Part shown: positions 7,788 to 28,615 of the stretch, one piece after another
Layout of the letters: every line of letters starts with the position of its first letter
How positions within the stretch are numbered: position 1 is the stretch's first letter
From: Dethiosulfovibrio peptidovorans
Lineage (GTDB): Bacteria > Synergistota > Synergistia > Synergistales > Dethiosulfovibrionaceae
DNA: 64,000 bases
Direction of reading: 5' to 3'
NCBI GenBank assembly: GCA_002748665.1
Contig: PDTB01000025.1
Location: 1-64,000, forward strand
The notes under the pieces: model-generated
The model's input: only the letters and a program-made list of their open reading frames with translations
Told to the model about the DNA's origin: nothing
The model's database searches: none
Made by a program: the position numbers and the translations under genes

Positions 7788-8293
7788 GAGGGCATCTCCT
7801 CTCGACAGAGACGGTCCATGAGGCGCTCTCTGTAACGTTCCTGAAAACACCACATCTGGGCCTTCCTCTCATCTGTATCGTGATCCCACCCCAAAAGGTG
7901 AAGCAAACCGTGGACAACCATCAGGGCCAACTCAGAATCGAAAGATGTGCCATGAGCCCTGGCGTTCACCCTGACCACTGCTGGACAGATAACCACGTCC
8001 CCCAAGGGGAGGTCATTCCAAGCATTCGGTGGTTCAAAGTGCCCATTCTCCTCCCATTGAGGGAAAGACAGAACATCTGTGGGAGCGTCGATCCCTCGAT
8101 AGGTTCGATTCAAGCCCCTGATGGAATCTGTGTTCACCGTTGCGATGGACAGAGATACCGAGTTTCGATCTGTCCACTGAGGCCACACCTCGTCAAGCAG
8201 AGAGGGAAGCTCAGACAGGAGCAACTCCTCATCAAGAACAGGGTATGATCGAGGGTCTCCTTCGTCAGAGGAGATGCCGATCTCCAATTTCAT
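7784..8293 (-). CDS. ybeY: Endoribonuclease YbeY, 16S rRNA maturation
   Basis: About 169 residues with the zinc-binding signature H-GLLHLLGWD-H near residues 128-138 and the upstream family motif APTDVLSFP. YbeY is a metal-dependent RNase acting in 16S rRNA 3' processing and ribosome quality control, matching its neighbour era. The ATG at 8293 shares bases with the pgpH TGA (TGATG); a GTG one codon earlier is also possible. Confidence 0.95.
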   Translation of the reverse strand: MKLEIGISSDEGDPRSYPVLDEELLLSELPSLLDEVWPQWTDRNSVSLSIATVNTDSIRGLNRTYRGIDAPTDVLSFPQWEENGHFEPPNAWNDLPLGDVVICPAVVRVNARAHGTSFDSELALMVVHGLLHLLGWDHDTDERKAQMWCFQERYRERLMDRLCREEMPS

Positions 8294-10332
8294 CACGTAG
8301 GTCCGTCCTTTCCGGCAAGAGCCGTTGTCTGTGGTAAGGGTGCGATGTTTCTGGTGTGATACATGGATTTCAGGGTCTGGATCATGGCCGACTTGACCAA
8401 CGAAAGATCAGCAAAAGTCAGGCCAGTGTCGTCCAATTGACCTGCCTTCAGCTTGGATGCGACCACGCCGTCAACGATCTCCTGGAGATCTGAGAAATTT
8501 CGGAGATTCTCCCGCTCAGCTCGAACGGCAGCCTCTACCGAGTCGGCCAGCATGACTACCCCTGTCTCCGCACTGGCTGGTCTGGGGCCAGGGTAGTGAA
8601 ATTGACTGGAGGATGGGTCCAACCCCATACGCAATGCCTTTTTATAAAAATACCCCAAAAACGTGGTTCCGTGATGCTCCGATATGAACCGACGAATTCC
8701 CTCGGGAAGCCGATATTCCGCCGCTAAATCAAGTCCCTCCCTGACATGGGATATGATAACCAACGTCGACATAACCGGTGAAAGGCCATCGTGAGCGTTT
8801 TTGGCACCAAATTGGTTTTCGACGAAAAATTGAGGTCGTTTGAGCTTGCCGATATCGTGAAAAAAAGCCCCGGCCTTAGCCAAACGCGAGTTAATCCCCA
8901 AGGCATCCGCTCCAGCCTCAGCCAGAGTAGCCACCATCTGAGAATGGTGATAGGTCCCCGGAGCCTCAATCTGAAGCCTTTTTTGAAGCGGATGGTCTGG
9001 CTGACACAGCTCCAGAAGCCTGAGAGGGGAAAGTGTGTCAAAAAGGGCCTCTGTCAGTGGGAGGAAGACCATGATGACAGTCCCCCACAAAACGGACACG
9101 CTCAAGGTTTTCATGAAAAACATGTAGTCAAAAGAGCTTCTGAAGGCCCATCGAGTCGCCAGAGTCACCATCAGAGCTACCAAACCAAGCTCGACCATGC
9201 TCAGCCAGAGCCGGGATCGAGAGTCGATTTTCATAAAAAGCCTCTCCCCAACAGCAGCCACCGCCACTCCCGTCGCCAAGATCTCGCCAAAAGAAAGAGG
9301 CGTTGAGTCGTTAAACACCACGGCGATAATCACCGAACCAGACAGAACAACACCGCTGGCCGGACGAAGAGGCATCGTGGCATAGGCCAACGCCCCCAAT
9401 GGAATGACCGCCAAAGCCGTCATCTTGTATAAGCCAGAGAGCCCGGCAGCGCAAAGTCCCATAGAGAACAAAAACACCACATATCCCATTCTCGAAGGAT
9501 CCCAGGGCAGAACCACCACCCACCTGACCCAGAAAAAAGCCAATGGAACTGTCAAAAGAAGCAGGAGCATGAATCGATAAGGGAAACTGGCCCGAGGATA
9601 GCCTTGTTTTTCGAGGAGTCTGGCTATCTGATCCGTAATCAGCTGACCTTTGGTCACGATCACATCCCCCCCATGAACTTCCTGAGAGACAGACTGAACG
9701 GCCTCGGCAACCATATTTCTGAGCTTGTCAGTGATCTCGCCATCCTCGGCTACCAGGGGGATCAAGACCTCCGAGAGGGTCTGAACAGCCAGGTTCCCTT
9801 CGCCAGCAGAAAGGTCTGCTTTCGCCAAAGATCTCCAAAGGATATCGTCGGTAACACCCATAGGAGAGTTACGATATCCATCCTCCAACAAAAGAGCGGT
9901 CCCCGCCGAGGAAATTTCCCGAAGGACGACCATCCGCCGATCTTCCGAGATCGTGCCGAGAAGCTCAGCCAGGGCCGGGGAAACGCCGGCCTCCTGCAAA
10001 CGACCAGAAGCGACGAGTTGAAGTCGCTCCTTAACCTCCCGAAGTCGCCTGGTCTGTCTGGTCAAAACTCCGACAACGCTGTCTTGAGCCATATCCCGGA
10101 GACGTTGCGTTTCGTCCTGATCATCATAGAACATATCGTACAGGGCAAAATAGGTCCTCGGTGCCGGAGCTCCTGCCATAAAGCCGTTCTCCAGATCAAG
10201 AGCTGCCCATCGAAGAATCAAAAGCAGCATCGCCACGATGGACAGGACAAACAGAGGAAGATAGACCGTCCGAAGACGAGCGAGGTTCCTCTCAGGATGA
10301 TGATGTGGCGTTTCTCTTTTCGAATCTCTCAT
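8293..10332 (-). CDS. pgpH: 7TM-7TMR-HD family protein, PgpH-type c-di-AMP phosphodiesterase
   Basis: About 679 residues. A first membrane segment (YLPLFVLSIVAMLLLILRW) is followed by a large extracytoplasmic domain, a block of seven hydrophobic helices, and a C-terminal HD hydrolase domain with H-HSQM, HDIGKLKRP and SEHHGT. This layout is that of PgpH, which degrades c-di-AMP. cdaA and cdaR are in the same window, supporting that role. The start is uncertain: ATG 10332 or 10362, both inside the end of phoH. Confidence 0.88.
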   Translation of the reverse strand: MRDSKRETPHHHPERNLARLRTVYLPLFVLSIVAMLLLILRWAALDLENGFMAGAPAPRTYFALYDMFYDDQDETQRLRDMAQDSVVGVLTRQTRRLREVKERLQLVASGRLQEAGVSPALAELLGTISEDRRMVVLREISSAGTALLLEDGYRNSPMGVTDDILWRSLAKADLSAGEGNLAVQTLSEVLIPLVAEDGEITDKLRNMVAEAVQSVSQEVHGGDVIVTKGQLITDQIARLLEKQGYPRASFPYRFMLLLLLTVPLAFFWVRWVVVLPWDPSRMGYVVFLFSMGLCAAGLSGLYKMTALAVIPLGALAYATMPLRPASGVVLSGSVIIAVVFNDSTPLSFGEILATGVAVAAVGERLFMKIDSRSRLWLSMVELGLVALMVTLATRWAFRSSFDYMFFMKTLSVSVLWGTVIMVFLPLTEALFDTLSPLRLLELCQPDHPLQKRLQIEAPGTYHHSQMVATLAEAGADALGINSRLAKAGAFFHDIGKLKRPQFFVENQFGAKNAHDGLSPVMSTLVIISHVREGLDLAAEYRLPEGIRRFISEHHGTTFLGYFYKKALRMGLDPSSSQFHYPGPRPASAETGVVMLADSVEAAVRAERENLRNFSDLQEIVDGVVASKLKAGQLDDTGLTFADLSLVKSAMIQTLKSMYHTRNIAPLPQTTALAGKDGPT

Positions 10333-11329
10333 AAGCAGCCACAACCCTCTGGACGATCTCATGACGCACCACGTCCACGTTCTCCAAACGGATAAACTGA
10401 ATACCCATGACGTCGTTCAGTATCTCCTGCACGACAAACAAACCGGACCGTTTCCCCGACGGAAGATCGACCTGGGTCAGGTCCCCGGTGATCACGGCCT
10501 TAGACCCAAAACCGAGCCTGGTAAGGAACATTTTCATCTGTTCCGGCGTCGTGTTCTGGGCCTCATCCAGGATGACAAAACTGTCGTTCAGGGTTCGTCC
10601 CCTCATGTAGGCCAGAGGCGCTATTTCGATGACGTTCTTATCCACGTACCGCATGAACCGCTCCGGCGTAAGGAGCTCAAAAAAAGCATCGTAAAGGGGA
10701 CGAAGGTAGGGTTCCACTTTCTCTTGAAGAGCACCAGGCAGAAAGCCCAAACTCTCGCCGGCCTCTACCGCAGGACGGACCAGAACGATGCGGTTAATAG
10801 CTCCGGATTTGAGCATATTCACCGCCTCACAGACCGCCAGATAGGTCTTACCGGTTCCAGCAGGGCCAATACCAAAAACGACGTCGTTTTCTCGAATTGC
10901 CTGAACATAGGTGCGTTGTCCCAGCGTTTTAGGCCGAACCGGTTTGCCTCGGGCTGTCATGCAGAGTAGGTCGTCATACAGGGCCTCCAGGTCAACCGAG
11001 CCCTTTCGGGCAATCATGTCCATGCCATAGCGGATCTCGGCAGGGCGAATAGAATGCCCCTTCTCAGCGATCCGCCCCATCTGCTCCACCAGGTTAGAGA
11101 CGATCTCTACGGCATCCTGATCAGGTCCCTGGACCACCACCACGTTTCCTCGCAGAACCAGCCGAACAGGGTAGCGTTCCTCTATGAGTTTGATGTTCTC
11201 GTCATCTTTGCCAGCCAACTTCGAGATAGCCTCCATACCGGCAAAGTCGAAAGAGGCCGAGCATCCCTCCGAGGTCACGATCACTGAGGATCTCCGCCGA
11301 CTCAAGGGTGCTGATCTCCTAAGTGACAC
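10292..11329 (-). CDS. phoH: PhoH family ATPase
   Basis: 345 residues from the first possible start (GTG 11329). A KH-like N-terminal part is followed by a PhoH ATPase with Walker A GPAGTGKT (155-162) and Walker B FVILDEAQN. PhoH/PhoL proteins are cytoplasmic nucleotide hydrolases linked to RNA metabolism and are typically beside ybeY, as here. A TTG at 11305 has AGGAGA about 9 bases before it and would be the better-spaced start, giving a protein about 8 residues shorter. Confidence 0.93.
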   Translation of the reverse strand: MSLRRSAPLSRRRSSVIVTSEGCSASFDFAGMEAISKLAGKDDENIKLIEERYPVRLVLRGNVVVVQGPDQDAVEIVSNLVEQMGRIAEKGHSIRPAEIRYGMDMIARKGSVDLEALYDDLLCMTARGKPVRPKTLGQRTYVQAIRENDVVFGIGPAGTGKTYLAVCEAVNMLKSGAINRIVLVRPAVEAGESLGFLPGALQEKVEPYLRPLYDAFFELLTPERFMRYVDKNVIEIAPLAYMRGRTLNDSFVILDEAQNTTPEQMKMFLTRLGFGSKAVITGDLTQVDLPSGKRSGLFVVQEILNDVMGIQFIRLENVDVVRHEIVQRVVAAYERFEKRNATSSS

Positions 11330-21426: not shown

Positions 21427-22506
21427 TTGAACCTACGATTCTTGCGGCAGTTTCTGTCCATTCTGTTGATCCTTTGGAGTTTTCCTTGCTGGGGAGCTCT
21501 TCGATGGACCATCGAAATCCCAGTGCAGGAGGGAGCCCAGGTCACAGCGCACATGGACGGTAGAACGATTCCACTGGGAACCGTCGAGTCCATCCCTACC
21601 TCGTCCCGACACCCCAGCTACACCGCCAGTGCCTGGGGCACACCGGGACACTGTTGCGCGTCGGCGGTGAACGCCCTTCATTTTCTGGTGTCGGTGGAAA
21701 ACAAGAAGGGACGAACCATCAGCGTGATCCCATCGGACACGATAGCCCCAGCTGCCACTCCTGGAACCGCTGTGGTGATCCGAGGCAAAGGCGGCCTGGG
21801 GCTCTTCGGAACGTGGGCTCCTCCCGTGGGGACACCGGTCATGATTCGATCCCTCAACGGCTTCCAAGAAATTCTGGGACCATCTCGACTCCCCGTCCGA
21901 GGAGACACGATGGTCCTGGCCGTGAACGTCCCGTCACCGCCGATCATGGTCGACATAGAGAACAGGCCATCGGGACAGGTGACCCTGTGGACCGCACGGG
22001 GCCCCAGGATCATCGCCCACGTCGTTCGACCAGTTCGGGGAACAGGCCGATTCGGCGGAACCCTGTATCAGTCGGTGGGACGGATGAGAGCCAACCATCC
22101 GGGAGTTATCGACATCTCTACATCTCGATACGGCCACATCGGTGGCTTTCAGATCGTTCCCCTTCAACACGGTAAATCCCCCGAGATGGCATCGATGTGG
22201 TCCATGACCCAGTGGATGATCCTGGCCCCTGAGAGCGACACGCCTTTGGCGGGACACTGGCCTCTTTTCTCCGAGGCCATGATTCCGGGTCCTACTCAGC
22301 CCCAGGACGAATCAGCCCGGGGGCTCTCCCTCTGGGCTCGATACGGACGGAGATCTCTGGTGCTGTGTCGCATGGACAGTGGCCCCTGGCAGTGGCTTCC
22401 TCAGGTTGAGGGACGAAATGACCTGGGTCTTCAATCGATCACCCACCTGCGGATATATTTTCCAAACGACGCAGAACCCCTGAGCTCGAGAGATCAAGCC
22501 TATTAA
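21427..22506 (+). CDS. Secreted protein of unknown function
   Basis: 359 residues. The start is a TTG with AAGGAGG 8 bases upstream. Residues 1-24 are a clear signal peptide (LRQFLSILLILWSFPCWG then A). The rest is soluble, rich in Pro, Gly and beta-type residues. Two adjacent cysteines lie near residue 76 (PGHCCASA) and another near residue 316. I recognise no family or catalytic motif. It is 40 bases after the CPBP gene and probably cotranscribed. Confidence 0.75.
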   Translation: MNLRFLRQFLSILLILWSFPCWGALRWTIEIPVQEGAQVTAHMDGRTIPLGTVESIPTSSRHPSYTASAWGTPGHCCASAVNALHFLVSVENKKGRTISVIPSDTIAPAATPGTAVVIRGKGGLGLFGTWAPPVGTPVMIRSLNGFQEILGPSRLPVRGDTMVLAVNVPSPPIMVDIENRPSGQVTLWTARGPRIIAHVVRPVRGTGRFGGTLYQSVGRMRANHPGVIDISTSRYGHIGGFQIVPLQHGKSPEMASMWSMTQWMILAPESDTPLAGHWPLFSEAMIPGPTQPQDESARGLSLWARYGRRSLVLCRMDSGPWQWLPQVEGRNDLGLQSITHLRIYFPNDAEPLSSRDQAY

Positions 22507-22541
22507 AAAACGTGAAGAGGATACCATGATGAGGCATCACA

Positions 22542-23087
22542 ATGAAGAATAAAAAAATATTAAAAGTAACAATCTTTCTTTTTCCAGGAGCAGTATTGAC
22601 AATACTTTGTTTAATATCATTCTACGTGTTTGAACTATGGCATCGAAATACCTACAAAACCGAATTGCAAACCATAAAAATGCCAGAACGAAATATAAAA
22701 TTTATACTACTAACTGACATGTCTGGTTTTGATGACATTTCATGGTATGTGTATAAAATTTCTGTTGATAAAAACCTCTCTGCCGCTCAGAAAAAATCAG
22801 GGGAAACAAATGACGTTTTGTTCTGGAATTATTCTGAAGCAGGTGAACATCAAGAAAACCCATTCATCAGGATCACCAAAGGGAAATATCTAATATTTAG
22901 CAGAGGCAATTTAGATTATAGTCTTTACGATATTGACCAAGATAAAGTTATTGTAAATGAACACTCTGCATGGGGTGCTGTAGCAAAAAAATCAACTATC
23001 GATTTACCGATCCAAGAAACCGATCAATTAATGAATGAATGGGTGCTAAAAAACGTACACACGAAAATAAGCAATTATATTAAATAG
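22542..23087 (+). CDS. AT-rich gene, single-membrane-span protein of unknown function
   Basis: 181 residues. It begins with lysines and one transmembrane helix (VTIFLFPGAVLTILCLISFYVF, about 9-30); the remainder should lie outside the membrane (MPERNIKFILLTDMSG, SWYVYKISV, LFWNYSEAGEH, YSLYDID). Base composition is far more AT-rich than neighbours and codon choice differs (AAA, ATA, AAT frequent), a strong sign of recent transfer. It vaguely resembles small accessory proteins of enterobacteria, but I cannot name a family. No clear ribosome site immediately precedes the ATG. Confidence 0.75.
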   Translation: MKNKKILKVTIFLFPGAVLTILCLISFYVFELWHRNTYKTELQTIKMPERNIKFILLTDMSGFDDISWYVYKISVDKNLSAAQKKSGETNDVLFWNYSEAGEHQENPFIRITKGKYLIFSRGNLDYSLYDIDQDKVIVNEHSAWGAVAKKSTIDLPIQETDQLMNEWVLKNVHTKISNYIK

Positions 23088-23115: not shown

Positions 23116-24942
23116 TTACTCTACCGTCACGCTTTTTGCCAAATTCCTGGGCTGGTCGATCTCCCGGCCTCGTGCCAAAGCCACGTAATAGGCGAAAAGC
23201 TGAAGGGGAACCACCGTCAGAAACGGTGATAACTCGGGCTCAGTTTGGGGCACCCAGATCACGTCCTGAACCTGATCGAGGAGGACATCCCGCCCCCGAG
23301 AAGCCACGGCAATAACCGGAGCATGCCGGGCTTTGGTCTCCTGGACGTTGGACAACGTCTTCTCGAACAACGAATCATCCGGCATGATGACCACCACCGG
23401 AACCGACGCCTCCAGCAGGGCGATGGGGCCGTGTTTCATCTCCCCTGCGGCGTAGGCCTCAGCATGAATGTAGGATATCTCCTTGAGTTTCAACGCACCC
23501 TCCAAAGCCACGGGGAACGACACCCCCCGTCCAAGAAACAAGAAGTCCTTCACATCGGCATATCGACTGGCTATCTCCTGAATCACGGCTGCCTGTTCGA
23601 GGGATGCCTCTACCTTGTACGGCAGGGACACCAGTTCCCTGACGATACGACCTTCGTCAGCCTCAGGAAGAGTTCCCCTGAGTTTGGCCAGGTACAGCCC
23701 CAGAAGATATAACACCGTCACCTGCCCTAAGAAAGTTTTTGTAGCGGCCACACCGATCTCAGGACCGGCCTCGAGCAAGAGAACATCGTCCACCTCTCGA
23801 GCGATGGAGGAGAGGCCGTTGTTCGTCACCGCCAGACATCGAGCCCCCTTGCTTTTGACGAATCGCTCCGCCGACAGGGTATCTATGGTCTCGCCCGACT
23901 GAGAGACGAGGACAGCCAAGGTCTCCTCTCCGGCAGGAATAGCCCGATATCGATATTCCGAAGCGATTTCCACTCGGACGTCCAAATCAGTGAATCTCTC
24001 GATAAGCCGCTCCGCTACCTGAGCAGCGTATAAGGAACTTCCACAGGCTACCAGATGAAGCCTTCGAAGGGACCGGGCCCATTTGGGGGTCCAGTCGAGT
24101 TCATGAGAGAGATCTACCCGATCACCCTCGGTCCGTCTCTGAAGAGATCGACGCAGGACGGCCCCCTGCTCGTTGATCTCCTTGAGCATGAAATGGGGAT
24201 AGCCCCCCTTATCGACCATGGAGAGATCCCAATCGACCTGGAGGGACTCTTTCGAGATATCCCGCCCCTTCTCGTCCCAGAAGACAACGCCCTCCCTGGA
24301 GAGACAGGCCATCTCTCCTTCCCCCATATAGACGATCCGACGAGTGTACGGGAGGACTGCCGGAACGTCAGAGGCGCAGAGAAACTCGCCATCTCCGAAC
24401 GCCACAATCAGAGGAGAGCCCTTTCGAAGACAGTAGAGGTGTTCCCTGTCATCGGTGAAGATCACAGCCAAGGCGAACGCACCGCTGAGACGCTCAGAGA
24501 GCTCGACCAGAGCCTGCTTGGGATCGCCACGATACAGCCGGGCCAGAAGCTGGGCGATGACCTCAGTATCCGTCTCAGATACGAAAGTGACGCCTTCTCG
24601 AAGAAGTTCGTCTCTAATATCCAGATAGTTCTCAGCGATACCGTTATGGACTAAAACGACCGAGTTGCCCTCATCCCTGTGGGGATGTGCGTTCTCCACG
24701 GTCACCCCACCATGGGTAGCCCATCGGGTATGTCCCAACCCCACGGTTCCCTTCAAAGGAGATCGATTGACCGCCTGAAGCAAATCGGCCACCTTGCCGA
24801 CCTCTCGAACCACCTGAACCCCGTCCTTACCGACGACAGCCATTCCTGCCGAGTCATACCCCCGATACTCTAACCGGGCAAGCCCTTCTAAAATCACCTG
24901 GGAAACGTCCCGGTGACCGATATATCCTACAATTCCGCACAT
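23116..24942 (-). CDS. glmS: Glutamine--fructose-6-phosphate aminotransferase (isomerizing)
   Basis: 608 residues from the ATG at 24942, which makes the residue after Met the catalytic Cys (MCGIVGYIGHRDV). A class II glutaminase domain is followed by two SIS domains (VACGSSLYAAQVAERLIE, VSQSGETIDTLSA) and the C-terminal PRNLAKSVTVE signature. It makes glucosamine-6-P, the first step to UDP-GlcNAc. AAGGA is better spaced for an ATG three codons earlier, but that product would bury the nucleophile, so the internal start is preferred. A glmS ribozyme lies just upstream. Confidence 0.97.
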   Translation of the reverse strand: MCGIVGYIGHRDVSQVILEGLARLEYRGYDSAGMAVVGKDGVQVVREVGKVADLLQAVNRSPLKGTVGLGHTRWATHGGVTVENAHPHRDEGNSVVLVHNGIAENYLDIRDELLREGVTFVSETDTEVIAQLLARLYRGDPKQALVELSERLSGAFALAVIFTDDREHLYCLRKGSPLIVAFGDGEFLCASDVPAVLPYTRRIVYMGEGEMACLSREGVVFWDEKGRDISKESLQVDWDLSMVDKGGYPHFMLKEINEQGAVLRRSLQRRTEGDRVDLSHELDWTPKWARSLRRLHLVACGSSLYAAQVAERLIERFTDLDVRVEIASEYRYRAIPAGEETLAVLVSQSGETIDTLSAERFVKSKGARCLAVTNNGLSSIAREVDDVLLLEAGPEIGVAATKTFLGQVTVLYLLGLYLAKLRGTLPEADEGRIVRELVSLPYKVEASLEQAAVIQEIASRYADVKDFLFLGRGVSFPVALEGALKLKEISYIHAEAYAAGEMKHGPIALLEASVPVVVIMPDDSLFEKTLSNVQETKARHAPVIAVASRGRDVLLDQVQDVIWVPQTEPELSPFLTVVPLQLFAYYVALARGREIDQPRNLAKSVTVE

Positions 24943-24967
24943 GGGAGTCATCCCATCCTTCCGTCAT

Positions 24968-25118
24968 TGGGGAAAATCCAAGGCTCTTTGTCCCGTCGGT
25001 CACCCAACAGTTTTGTGGCCTGGGTTCTGGGAGGTTTCCCGCCCCCCTGGAGGCATCCGCCGATATATCGATCATCCTCCACCCTCGTCAACTGAGATGT
25101 TACCCCAGTCCAGGCGCT
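24968..25118 (-). ncRNA. glmS ribozyme-riboswitch (GlcN-6-P-activated self-cleaving RNA)
   Basis: In the 233-base gap between glmM and glmS, the minus strand carries the conserved blocks of the glmS ribozyme in order. First is A|GCGCC with the predicted cleavage between 25118 and 25117. Then come AGTTGACGAGGGTGGAGG (25075-25092), ATCGATATATCGG, and CGGCGGATGCCTCC (within 25049-25062), followed by the pairing regions of P3/P4. The GTGGAGG/CCTCC and ATCGAT/ATCGG elements form the pseudoknotted core. In known cases GlcN-6-P acts as cofactor, the mRNA cleaves itself and is degraded, lowering GlmS. The 3' limit is approximate. Confidence 0.9.
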
Positions 25119-25175
25119 TCCATCAACCGCTTTGCAGCCTCAATGTCACCTCCCTTCACGAAGGGACGGTCCTCA

Positions 25176-26546
25176 TCAAAGTGCCGTCTCAAGTATCAAT
25201 TGCTCAAGATCACGAGAGAGGGTCTCCATCCGAAGAGAGTCCTCACATTCCACCAGAAGGCGAATCAGCGGCTCAGTTCCCGAGGGACGGAGAAAGATCC
25301 GCCCTGAAGAGCCAAGCGCTCTATCCTCAGCCTCCACGACCTGCGAGATTCTTTCGGAGCTCATAACTGACGCCCTGTTTTGAACCGGGATATTCGTCAG
25401 TTTCTGAGGAAAACGACCAAATCGGTCAACCAACGAGTCCACATCCTCGCCGAGATCACGACACGCCTGAAGAAAGAGAAAACCGGTACACAGTCCATCT
25501 CCCGTTTTGGTGAAGGGGTGGACAATGACGTGTCCCGATTGCTCCCCTCCAAGATGAGCTCCCCGCTCTTTCATGGTCTGAAGAACATATCTGTCTCCCA
25601 CAGAGCACCGATAGACGGAGATAGACTCGTCCTGCAAGCGACGTTCCAGGGCAAGATTGCTCATGACCGTCGCCACGACACCCTCACCAAGGCGTCCCTG
25701 AGAATGAAGCCACCGAGCCAGCACCCAGAGCATGATGTCCCCGTCCAGCACACGCCCCTGGCTGTCGGACAACAGGACCCGATCAGCATCTCCATCGTAA
25801 GCGATACCTAAACGGTATCCCTCAGACCTGACCGCAGAACACAAGGTATCCATAACCATGACGCCACACTTCTCGTTGATATTCAAACCATCAGGAGATG
25901 CCCCTAGAATGGAGGCTCTTTCGAAACCACAGGACCTCAGGATCTCCGGAATCACCGAAGCAGCAGCACCATGAGCACAATCAAAGAGAATTCGAAGGTC
26001 ACGATCACATTTTTCTCCAACGGAAGTCACGTGAGAAGCGTATTGGTTATTGAAGTCGGACTCCATATATTGGATGGACCCCACTGAGGCTCCAGAAGGC
26101 CGCCAATCGTCGATCAGATTGTCACCCAGATACTCCTCAATAGCCAGTTCGTCCTGGTCTGAGAGCTTACACCCCGCCCCATCCAGAAATTTGATTCCGT
26201 TGTACTCGGCCGGGTTATGAGACGCGCTGATAACAGCGCCCCCCTGAGCATTTAAGGCCTCAACACCATAGCTCACCGCCGGGGTCGGCATCACCCCCAC
26301 GCACAGTACGTCAGCACCGGCAGAGGTCATTCCCGCCACAAGAGCAGACTGAAGCATGGGGCCCGACTTTCGAGTGTCCCGTCCCACAACGATTCGAGGT
26401 CGGGGAACTCCCCGCTCAGTCAGGAAAAGAACGTAGGCTCTTCCAAGACGCAAAGCCATCTCGGGCGTCATCGCTCCTCGATTGGCCACATCTCTCACCC
26501 CGTCAGTACCGAAAAGACAGCGTCGCCGTACTCCATCGTCACCCAT
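25176..26546 (-). CDS. glmM: Phosphoglucosamine mutase
   Basis: About 456 residues from ATG 26546; an earlier GTG lies before the GGAGGG ribosome site, so it is not used. RCLFGTDGVRDVAN is the N-terminus. The active-site serine loop is ISASHNPAEYNGIKF, the metal loop is AYDGDADRVLLSD, and the sugar-binding loop GGEQSGH and phosphate loop RPSGTEPLIR follow. It converts GlcN-6-P to GlcN-1-P, the step between GlmS and GlmU. It overlaps no gene but sits 17 bases after cdaR. Confidence 0.97.
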   Translation of the reverse strand: MGDDGVRRRCLFGTDGVRDVANRGAMTPEMALRLGRAYVLFLTERGVPRPRIVVGRDTRKSGPMLQSALVAGMTSAGADVLCVGVMPTPAVSYGVEALNAQGGAVISASHNPAEYNGIKFLDGAGCKLSDQDELAIEEYLGDNLIDDWRPSGASVGSIQYMESDFNNQYASHVTSVGEKCDRDLRILFDCAHGAAASVIPEILRSCGFERASILGASPDGLNINEKCGVMVMDTLCSAVRSEGYRLGIAYDGDADRVLLSDSQGRVLDGDIMLWVLARWLHSQGRLGEGVVATVMSNLALERRLQDESISVYRCSVGDRYVLQTMKERGAHLGGEQSGHVIVHPFTKTGDGLCTGFLFLQACRDLGEDVDSLVDRFGRFPQKLTNIPVQNRASVMSSERISQVVEAEDRALGSSGRIFLRPSGTEPLIRLLVECEDSLRMETLSRDLEQLILETAL

Positions 26547-26563
26547 GTTTCCATCGCCCTCCT

Positions 26564-27784
26564 TCACTGAACCTTCGCCTTCACCGTCACCCGCTCGGGT
26601 TTGACTGAGACGATGGACAGATTTCTTTCGTTCACGTCGATAGTCACAGGAACCCTAAGCTGCCGAGATATGATATTCGTCACGTCCACATATACGGAAA
26701 AGGGCGGATCATTCTCGATAGCACCCACAGCAGCAACCGAGCCCTGTATCCGAACATCTACCGCTTGAGGCAGGACCTCCCAACCTGGATAGACGCTCCG
26801 TCCTCGAATCTCCACGGGAACTCTGGAGAAGAGCCGCGAGGACATCTTAGGCTTTAACAACACCTTCACGGATATCGACGTCTCGCCCAGAAGATGCAAA
26901 TTTTTGTCGACAAGGGGACGAAGAGGAACGATCATGGATCGATCCTGATCGAAACCAGAGATATCGATAGCGTCGGTCTCCAGCTGTCCCAAATTCTGCA
27001 GGGACTTCTCTGGTCCCTCCACCTCCACAAAGGACGGGGAAACCACCAGACGATCCACCTGATAATTGACATCAGGTACACCGGAAAGAGGGACTTCCAC
27101 AGGAAGCGACGCTCGGGGCTGCCCTTTTCGAAGAATGGCCGTCAAAGCCACCGTCTCTGGATGAACCGTCAAAGCAGCGTTTACCCCCTCAGGATGAACG
27201 AGTTTCAGGAGAAGGTCTCTTGTCTCCCCCCGCTGAAGCTCCTCCAAAGTGGGCTGCACCAGGACATCGGTGACCTCGGAAATAGCGTCCTCGGGCCCCT
27301 TAATCGTCACGTCCTTCGGATCCAGCTCCACACTATCCATAAGCAGCCCTGGCGGCAGCCCATCGACCACGGAGACATGTACTGGAAGGACCTTCTCAGC
27401 ATAGCGAACCAAGGACACCTCCAAGTTGAGGGGATTTACATGGGTCAGAGTACTCCTGCCAGGCAGGTTGACCTTCACGGGAAGTCGATACTTGCCAGGT
27501 CCGAGCCCTTGAACATCCACCTCACAGAGGATATTCTGAGGAGTCAATTCCGCTACGACGTCTCGAGGTCCCTGGATTCCCACGTCAACAGTGCGCCGAT
27601 CCACGTTTAACGTCAGCTCGGACGAGATGCTCCGAAACTGAACGTCACAGGACATCTCTTTCTCCATATCAGCACCAAAATCTCCGTTGACATAGCCCCA
27701 CAAAAAGAAAGCGATACACACCGAGATACACTTGAGGAAGGTCTTGGACCCCACGAACTTATCAAGCTCCTTGAAAAACGACAC
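26564..27784 (-). CDS. cdaR: YbbR/CdaR, regulator of c-di-AMP synthase
   Basis: 406 residues: an N-terminal membrane anchor (FLKCISVCIAFFLWGYVNG, about 17-35) and an extracytoplasmic region of several YbbR repeats (VGIQGPRDVVAELTP, VTIKGPEDAISEV, VEVEGPEKSLQNL, VRIQGSVAAVGAI). CdaR modulates the membrane diadenylate cyclase CdaA, encoded immediately upstream. The cdaA-cdaR-glmM order is conserved and links cell-wall precursor synthesis with c-di-AMP. Confidence 0.93.
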   Translation of the reverse strand: MSFFKELDKFVGSKTFLKCISVCIAFFLWGYVNGDFGADMEKEMSCDVQFRSISSELTLNVDRRTVDVGIQGPRDVVAELTPQNILCEVDVQGLGPGKYRLPVKVNLPGRSTLTHVNPLNLEVSLVRYAEKVLPVHVSVVDGLPPGLLMDSVELDPKDVTIKGPEDAISEVTDVLVQPTLEELQRGETRDLLLKLVHPEGVNAALTVHPETVALTAILRKGQPRASLPVEVPLSGVPDVNYQVDRLVVSPSFVEVEGPEKSLQNLGQLETDAIDISGFDQDRSMIVPLRPLVDKNLHLLGETSISVKVLLKPKMSSRLFSRVPVEIRGRSVYPGWEVLPQAVDVRIQGSVAAVGAIENDPPFSVYVDVTNIISRQLRVPVTIDVNERNLSIVSVKPERVTVKAKVQ

Positions 27785-27799: not shown

Positions 27800-28615
27800 C
27801 TATCCTAGAGAGCGGATCTCTTCTCGCAAGGTCTCCAAAAAGGATTGCTGCTCCGTATCCTCTCCGGAGAAATAGTGTACCAGCAATCTGTGTACCTGAT
27901 CGTCCTTTACGTTTCGAGAAAGATGGCCATTCGTAGCCACGGACACCTCTCCTCGCTCCTCTGAGACGATGATGGAGACGGCATCCGAGACCTCTGTCAC
28001 CCCGATCCCCGCCCGATGTCGGGTACCGATCCACCGAGACAGGTCGCTGTTTTCCGTCAGGGGCAGATAACACCCGGCAGCGATGACTCGTGATTGATCC
28101 AAAATAACGGCACCGTCATGAAGTGGGTTGTTTTCCCAAAAGAGGGATATCAAAAGCTCCTGACTGATAGCTGCATCTAAAAACACAGCCGTCCGCCAGA
28201 AGTCCTTAAGACCGGTCTCCCGCTTAAAAACCAACAACGCTCCGATCTTATGGCTCTTCAGGTAGGCTAAAGCCTTAGAGATCTCATCGGAGATGGATTC
28301 GGCCCGCTTTTGGGCCTTACGCCTCTTCCATATGTTGCCCCGCCCCAACTCCTCCAATATTTTCCGAACTTCGGGCTGAAAAACGATGGGTATGGCTATC
28401 ACCATGATTCCCAGCAACTGCCCCATGAACCATGAGATCGTGGTCAAATCCAACAACCGGGCAACTGAAGCCAGGAGACCGATAACTAAAAGCCCCTTCA
28501 CCAGCTGCATGGCTCGGGTTCCGTAGAGGAGCGAAAGCAATCGGTAGATGACGAAGGATATAACAAGAATATCCACCACGTCCTGCCACCTGATAAGTGT
28601 GATGATCTTCGTCAT
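27800..28615 (-). CDS. cdaA: Membrane diadenylate cyclase CdaA (DisA_N domain)
   Basis: 271 residues. Three hydrophobic helices occupy residues about 12-80. The cytoplasmic diadenylate cyclase domain carries DGA (167-169, in NPLHDGAVIL) and RHR (199-201, in GTRHRAGIGVTE), the two signature motifs for making c-di-AMP from two ATP. It is the first of cdaA-cdaR-glmM-glmS. A PgpH-type phosphodiesterase at 8293-10332 could be the opposing enzyme. Confidence 0.96.
   Translation of the reverse strand: MTKIITLIRWQDVVDILVISFVIYRLLSLLYGTRAMQLVKGLLVIGLLASVARLLDLTTISWFMGQLLGIMVIAIPIVFQPEVRKILEELGRGNIWKRRKAQKRAESISDEISKALAYLKSHKIGALLVFKRETGLKDFWRTAVFLDAAISQELLISLFWENNPLHDGAVILDQSRVIAAGCYLPLTENSDLSRWIGTRHRAGIGVTEVSDAVSIIVSEERGEVSVATNGHLSRNVKDDQVHRLLVHYFSGEDTEQQSFLETLREEIRSLG

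Follow-up and report, generated by a model that had tools for sequence, protein, structure and literature searches.

The locus described here raises the question of whether the RNA that precedes glmS in Dethiosulfovibrio peptidovorans is a genuine glmS ribozyme and, if so, how such an RNA came to reside in this organism and what it would do there. The original prediction, made for the 64 kb stretch of DNA that we analyzed as a whole and refer to below as the window, had placed a glmS ribozyme within a cdaA-cdaR-glmM-glmS cluster of a non-Bacillota host. The host does lie outside that phylum (Synergistota, order Synergistales), and its genome comprises 2.06 Mb in 48 contigs. We consider it highly probable (roughly 0.94) that the element is a canonical RF00234 ribozyme, long resident in Synergistota, with GlcN6P-triggered self-cleavage that would selectively lower GlmS. 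L-, G- and f-numbers below are our own codes for loci, genomes and families.

The glmS leader carries a full-length RF00234 match

The prediction had been based on conserved blocks, and a search with the Infernal/Rfam model RF00234 had been proposed as its test. When the whole window was searched with cmscan against Rfam 15, a significant, full-length match to this model (positions 1-167 of 167) was found at 25129-24968 on the (-) strand, with a score of 104.6 bits (gathering score 37) and an E-value of 1.9e-23, and no other match in the 64 kb reached a gathering score. The match extends 11 nt further upstream than the interval first proposed, which stopped at A-1. From 25118 onward on the (-) strand, the core blocks follow one another in the predicted order, A|GCGCC, then GTTGACGAGG, then ATCGA...TCGGCGGATGCCTCC, and self-cleavage, previously expected near 25117, is predicted to separate A 25118 from G 25117. 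The ribozyme sits within the glmS 5' leader and shares the strand of that gene, with 57 nt between the glmM stop codon and A-1 and 25 nt between the end of the match and the glmS ATG. Pfam bore out all four genes of the claimed context, which are arranged on the (-) strand as cdaA-cdaR-glmM-[ribozyme]-glmS:

27800..28615 (-), cdaA, diadenylate cyclase (DAC 138.7 bits, CdaA_N 24.5 bits)
26564..27784 (-), cdaR (YbbR, three stretches; its last 4 nt are shared with the start of glmM)
25176..26567 (-), glmM (PGM_PMM_I to IV)
25145..25154 (-), SD-like GGGAGGTGAC upstream of the ribozyme, found by eye and partly within a predicted hairpin
24968..25129 (-), glmS ribozyme (full RF00234 match and covariation)
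25117..25118 (-), predicted self-cleavage site, A-1 = 25118 and G1 = 25117 (Rfam alignment)
24957..24962 (-), possible glmS ribosome-binding site GGAAGG, read from the sequence
23116..24942 (-), glmS (Pfam SIS, GATase_6, GATase_7)

The glmS start was set from the sequence at the ATG at 24942, where Cys directly follows Met (MCGIVGY); a longer frame opens at an in-frame ATG at 24951, from which additional residues would precede the Cys. A small hairpin predicted at 24941-24956 (-), AUGGGA-UGAC-UCCCAU, contains the glmS start codon. Two further features of the window were observed. Just downstream of glmS, on the opposite strand, is an AT-rich ORF (22542-23087, +) with 33% GC at 22500-22999 (53-62% nearby); it has no Pfam match and no homologue among the 40 relatives searched, and it looks like a recent acquisition. 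The product of 8293-10362 (-) has 7TMR-HDED and HD domains and is presumably PgpH-like; it is possibly the c-di-AMP phosphodiesterase counterpart of cdaA.

In the gap between glmM and the ribozyme, simple sigma-70 and intrinsic-terminator scans gave neither a promoter-like nor a terminator-like match; across the region, they returned 6 promoter-like sites (4.0 in shuffled sequences) and 7 terminator-like sites (7.0 in shuffled sequences). The ribozyme is probably transcribed together with cdaA-cdaR-glmM and glmS, or possibly from a promoter of another type. Strong hairpins that appear terminator-like by eye are present in the glmM-ribozyme gap of two relatives of the same family without galU (L149, 2502-2610, -; L116, 2514-2620, -), so co-transcription may fail in some relatives, with glmS possibly being transcribed separately there. 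By eye, some relatives within the family also have motifs resembling GGGAGGTGAC in a comparable position. A short upstream ORF starting at this motif was considered and dropped because its frames differ among relatives by eye.

Covariation in P1, P2, P4 and P4.1 agrees with the Rfam structure

The fold was assessed by transferring the Rfam structure onto a MAFFT alignment of 44 Synergistota sequences, including that of the window. The A and the GCGCC at the cleavage site are invariant in this alignment, as are the blocks AGCGCC, ACGAGG, TCGA and TCGGCGG, and so too are the partner segments of the core pseudoknots known from the crystal structures. Standard pairs occupied 85.3% of 1568 cells, compared with a mean of 69.3% in shuffled alignments (none of 500 shuffles was as high), and sliding the structure by 1-3 columns left only 35.1-54.6% of the cells paired. 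Both sides had changed in at least one sequence for 29 of the 37 pairs, such changes occurring in pairs of P1, P2, P4 and P4.1, where 94.9%, 92.7%, 79.0% and 94.1% of cells, respectively, were paired. The two P3 helices were paired in 67.9% and 34.2% of cells in the MAFFT alignment, perhaps reflecting misalignment of a variable stem, and the window's own P3 fits the Rfam model. Unusual stability was not found in single-strand, pseudoknot-free folds (z of -1.58 for the flank and -1.32 for the whole leader). Judged by its sequence and alignment, the window RNA is a true and ordinary member of the known glmS ribozyme class.

Distribution in Synergistota and association with operon position

The RF00234 model matched 46 of 61 genomes in a set made up of the window's genome and its relatives. 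In a phylum-wide count that used stricter filters and lost some weak matches, 63 of 185 Synergistota genomes were positive (45 of 115 among those of good quality), and these were spread over 26 of 62 genera and over 11 family codes (f1-f10 and f12). The ribozyme was found in all seven genomes of the window's genus and in 12 of the 14 of its family, the two misses being genomes of 82-83% completeness that also gave no GlmS match. The counts leave out a regex screen, which overlooked some true ribozymes. Beyond the phylum, 78 of 119 Bacillota genomes were positive, with a best score of 126.9 bits. Among 80 named genomes with a similar GlmS, 23 carried the ribozyme, namely 23 of the 39 with Bacillota names and none of the 41 others; this split was made by name and in part with stricter filters, and the 41 include one Synergistaceae MAG and one unlabelled bacterium. 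Deinococcota glmS ribozymes likewise lie outside Bacillota: Deinobacterium chartae, included as a control, has a match, and structural variants in Deinococcota were reportedly described by McCown et al. in 2011. Literature searches for glmS ribozymes and Synergistota returned nothing on point among the matches listed, and none with Dethiosulfovibrio. Synergistota are named among riboswitch-rich phyla in the available portions of PMC11089507 and PMC12452182, whose main text does not name glmS there, and the available portions of PMC3766115, PMC9318921, PMC2258182 and PMC9495176 contain nothing on Synergistota glmS ribozymes.

The presence of the ribozyme was compared with gene neighborhood at 100 hand-picked Synergistota GlmS loci, 56 with a ribozyme and 44 without. 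At 49 of the 56 ribozyme-bearing loci, glmS is preceded by glmM in the same orientation; the other seven comprise six of family f9, where glmS has been relocated with its ribozyme kept, and one located where a contig begins. Neither glmM nor cdaR nor cdaA was present in the flanks retrieved for the 44 ribozyme-less loci, some of which are truncated by contig ends. In this hand-picked set, 50 loci with readable flanks lie off the operon, 44 without a ribozyme and six with one, all six bearing a single family code. A GalU-type gene is present between glmM and the ribozyme at 41 of the 49 operon loci (for example L114, L134 and L151, within L112-L211); three of these proteins scored 313, 321 and 351 bits with a galU model whose cut-off is 326.8. 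The eight galU-free operon loci are all from the window's family, f1. The window, too, lacks a GalU-type gene at this position, and its genome has no galU match above the cut-off, the best being far below it at 30.5 bits.

Origin of the ribozyme and of ribozyme-less glmS

GlmS phylogeny was examined with two trees. The larger, built by a quick method and unrooted, has 95 rows (30 Synergistota with a ribozyme, 30 Synergistota without and 35 others). A single starred group holds 51 Synergistota rows, 29 with and 22 without a ribozyme, and the window falls beside its genus. The ribozyme-bearing L163 (f12), on a long branch, is placed next to this group with weak support. The 22 ribozyme-less rows form one group inside the Synergistota group (support 91), while the remaining eight consist of six that group together among Clostridia (L196, L197, L198, L201, L205 and L207), a long-branched seventh nearby and one apart. 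The clostridial-type GlmS of those Synergistota suggests replacement of the native gene, and ribozyme-less glmS seems to have two sources, a relocated native gene and a clostridial-type replacement; because the tree is unrooted, we infer this direction. The second tree, prepared more carefully, has 35 rows, of which 12 are author-chosen Synergistota, all of the native type. It recovers a Synergistota clade that includes the window (100/100) and a separate Bacillota clade (100/100). Constraining Synergistota and Bacillota GlmS to group together cost 6.6 log units (p-AU 0.235), a result that neither rejects nor shows their sisterhood.

The original prediction had offered shared ancestry of the cluster or transfer along with its gene order as explanations for a ribozyme in this host. 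Recent acquisition of cluster and ribozyme from Bacillota would account for a gene order and ribozyme like those of B. subtilis and for Bacillota ribozymes that score as high as the window's or higher, but both GlmS trees disfavor it, with the window's GlmS in the Synergistota clade and beside its genus while Bacillota stand apart, and the near-complete occurrence in the genus and family also counts against it. We regard such an acquisition as extremely improbable: with the ribozyme spread across the phylum and the window's GlmS within the Synergistota clade, recent transfer is not needed, and the part of the earlier claim that invoked transfer for this host finds no support. Very old common ancestry and very old transfer are left undivided by the AU test. 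Movement of the ribozyme long ago between the stems of Bacillota and Synergistota, as opposed to inheritance from a common ancestor, has a substantial chance of being right, though one somewhat short of even. It agrees with the restriction to Bacillota names among genomes with similar GlmS, but the two groups held together are not rejected, and common ancestry followed by losses is possible.

That the window's copy is a decayed, inactive relic is also very improbable, if slightly less so than the recent acquisition. In favor of decay, the model matches nothing in most genomes of the phylum (122 of 185), but the core blocks of the window's copy are intact, its stems are compensated, and its score ranks second among the 12 matches of its family.

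Probable mode of action

B. subtilis has the same operon, cdaA-cdaR-glmM-glmS with a ribozyme, and mutation of the ribozyme there (glmS1) raises glmS mRNA more than 50-fold, according to the available portion of PMC6171935; the available portion of PMC3997798 reports that the post-cleavage, 5'-OH glmS mRNA is degraded by RNase J1. The window shares with the B. subtilis element a full-length RF00234 match, the core blocks, the gene, the position before glmS and the operon. It differs in host phylum and in an upstream GCG that few of the sampled Bacillota flanks have, and the GalU-type gene found between glmM and the ribozyme at most Synergistota operon loci is a further difference from B. subtilis, one not seen in the window.

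The B. subtilis-type working is most likely for the window ribozyme; ligand dependence, cleavage, decay route and co-transcription are all drawn from that organism. When GlcN6P, the product of GlmS, is plentiful, the RNA would take it as a cofactor and cleave itself at 25118/25117. CdaA, CdaR and GlmM would still be encoded by the upstream fragment, and the downstream glmS fragment, left with a 5'-OH, would undergo 5' to 3' decay by the host's RNase J homologue. The outcome would be product feedback in which glmS is removed from the polycistronic message while cdaA, cdaR and glmM are spared, so that GlmS alone drops. An RNase J-family protein of the host (TIGR00649, 568.5 bits with a cut-off of 400) makes the B. 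subtilis decay route available; TIGR00649 also exceeded its cut-off in 9 of 14 control genomes, and presence of RNase J is not distinctive. Given this homologue and the clear glmM-ribozyme gap in the promoter and terminator scans, selective lowering of GlmS by splitting of the operon mRNA is plausible. Among the literature matches listed, none reported experiments on the glmS ribozyme in this host or its phylum.

A GCG box upstream of the cleavage site

Although the sequences that precede the ribozyme otherwise vary among Synergistota, a short element recurs in most of them; in the window it is:

25128..25130 (-), GCG box, with its first base 12 nt before A-1 (counted in flanks)

GCG occurred 10-16 nt before A-1 in 47 of 60 Synergistota flanks, and in 36 of the 47 that remained after removal of those at least 70% alike. 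Across 2000 shuffles of the same flanks, the count averaged 5.6 and never exceeded 13, and intervals at other distances gave 3 to 7 of 47. The corresponding Bacillota counts were 3 of 76 and 3 of 74 non-redundant flanks (shuffled mean 4.8; 0 to 12 of 74 at other distances), and 3 of 20 among non-redundant flanks of at least 45% GC. The Fisher p for Synergistota versus Bacillota is 1.4e-17, a figure that ignores relatedness. The test was post hoc: the box was spotted by eye and counted on the same flanks, after which four more Synergistota loci and the Bacillota were added. The Synergistota survey covered L112-L164, L209-L211 and L278-L281, using 60 of the 63 ribozyme matches (G048 and G057 lay outside the retrieved set, and the flank of G065 was too short); L278 is probably mis-anchored and was counted as lacking GCG. 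Bacillota flanks were anchored for 62 of 66 in one set and 14 of 30 in a named set, in which 16 of the 30 genomes have a ribozyme.

At the relocated f9 loci, which have a different upstream gene, GCG is kept in four of six (L128, L131, L133 and L210, but not L125 or L161), and it is therefore not simply part of the upstream gene. GCG is the complement of C2-G3-C4, which is invariant in the cleavage strand. Nearest-neighbor folding of 33 flanks paired the box's C with G3 at a probability of at least 0.5, at some transcript length, in five (L116, L120, L140, L143 and L153), and no other recurring partner was seen. The bases adjoining GCG showed no convincing pairing with any ribozyme column in the 33 aligned rows with the box; A never follows the box, but in 17 of the 33 the next base is G, which is unable to pair with G1. 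The folds and the neighboring bases thus leave a pairing model unsupported. Readings of the box as a sigma-70 discriminator or as an RNA-polymerase pause signal were dropped by eye, there being no consistent -10 element or fixed spacing. The box may be a new, phylum-associated element, and no description of it was found among the literature matches listed, which is not a claim of its absence from print. A possible but doubtful interpretation is that it is a phylum-specific 5' element acting on Synergistota ribozymes, for example through an alternative pairing with C2-G3-C4 that is displaced before cutting, or through a partner in trans.

Taken together, the results indicate that Synergistota have long had feedback control by the glmS ribozyme as a trait of their own and did not recently borrow it from Bacillota, and that presence of the ribozyme is associated with retention of glmS downstream of glmM in the c-di-AMP and cell-wall operon. 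If the GCG element is functional, sequence outside the ribozyme core would be under selection in a whole phylum.
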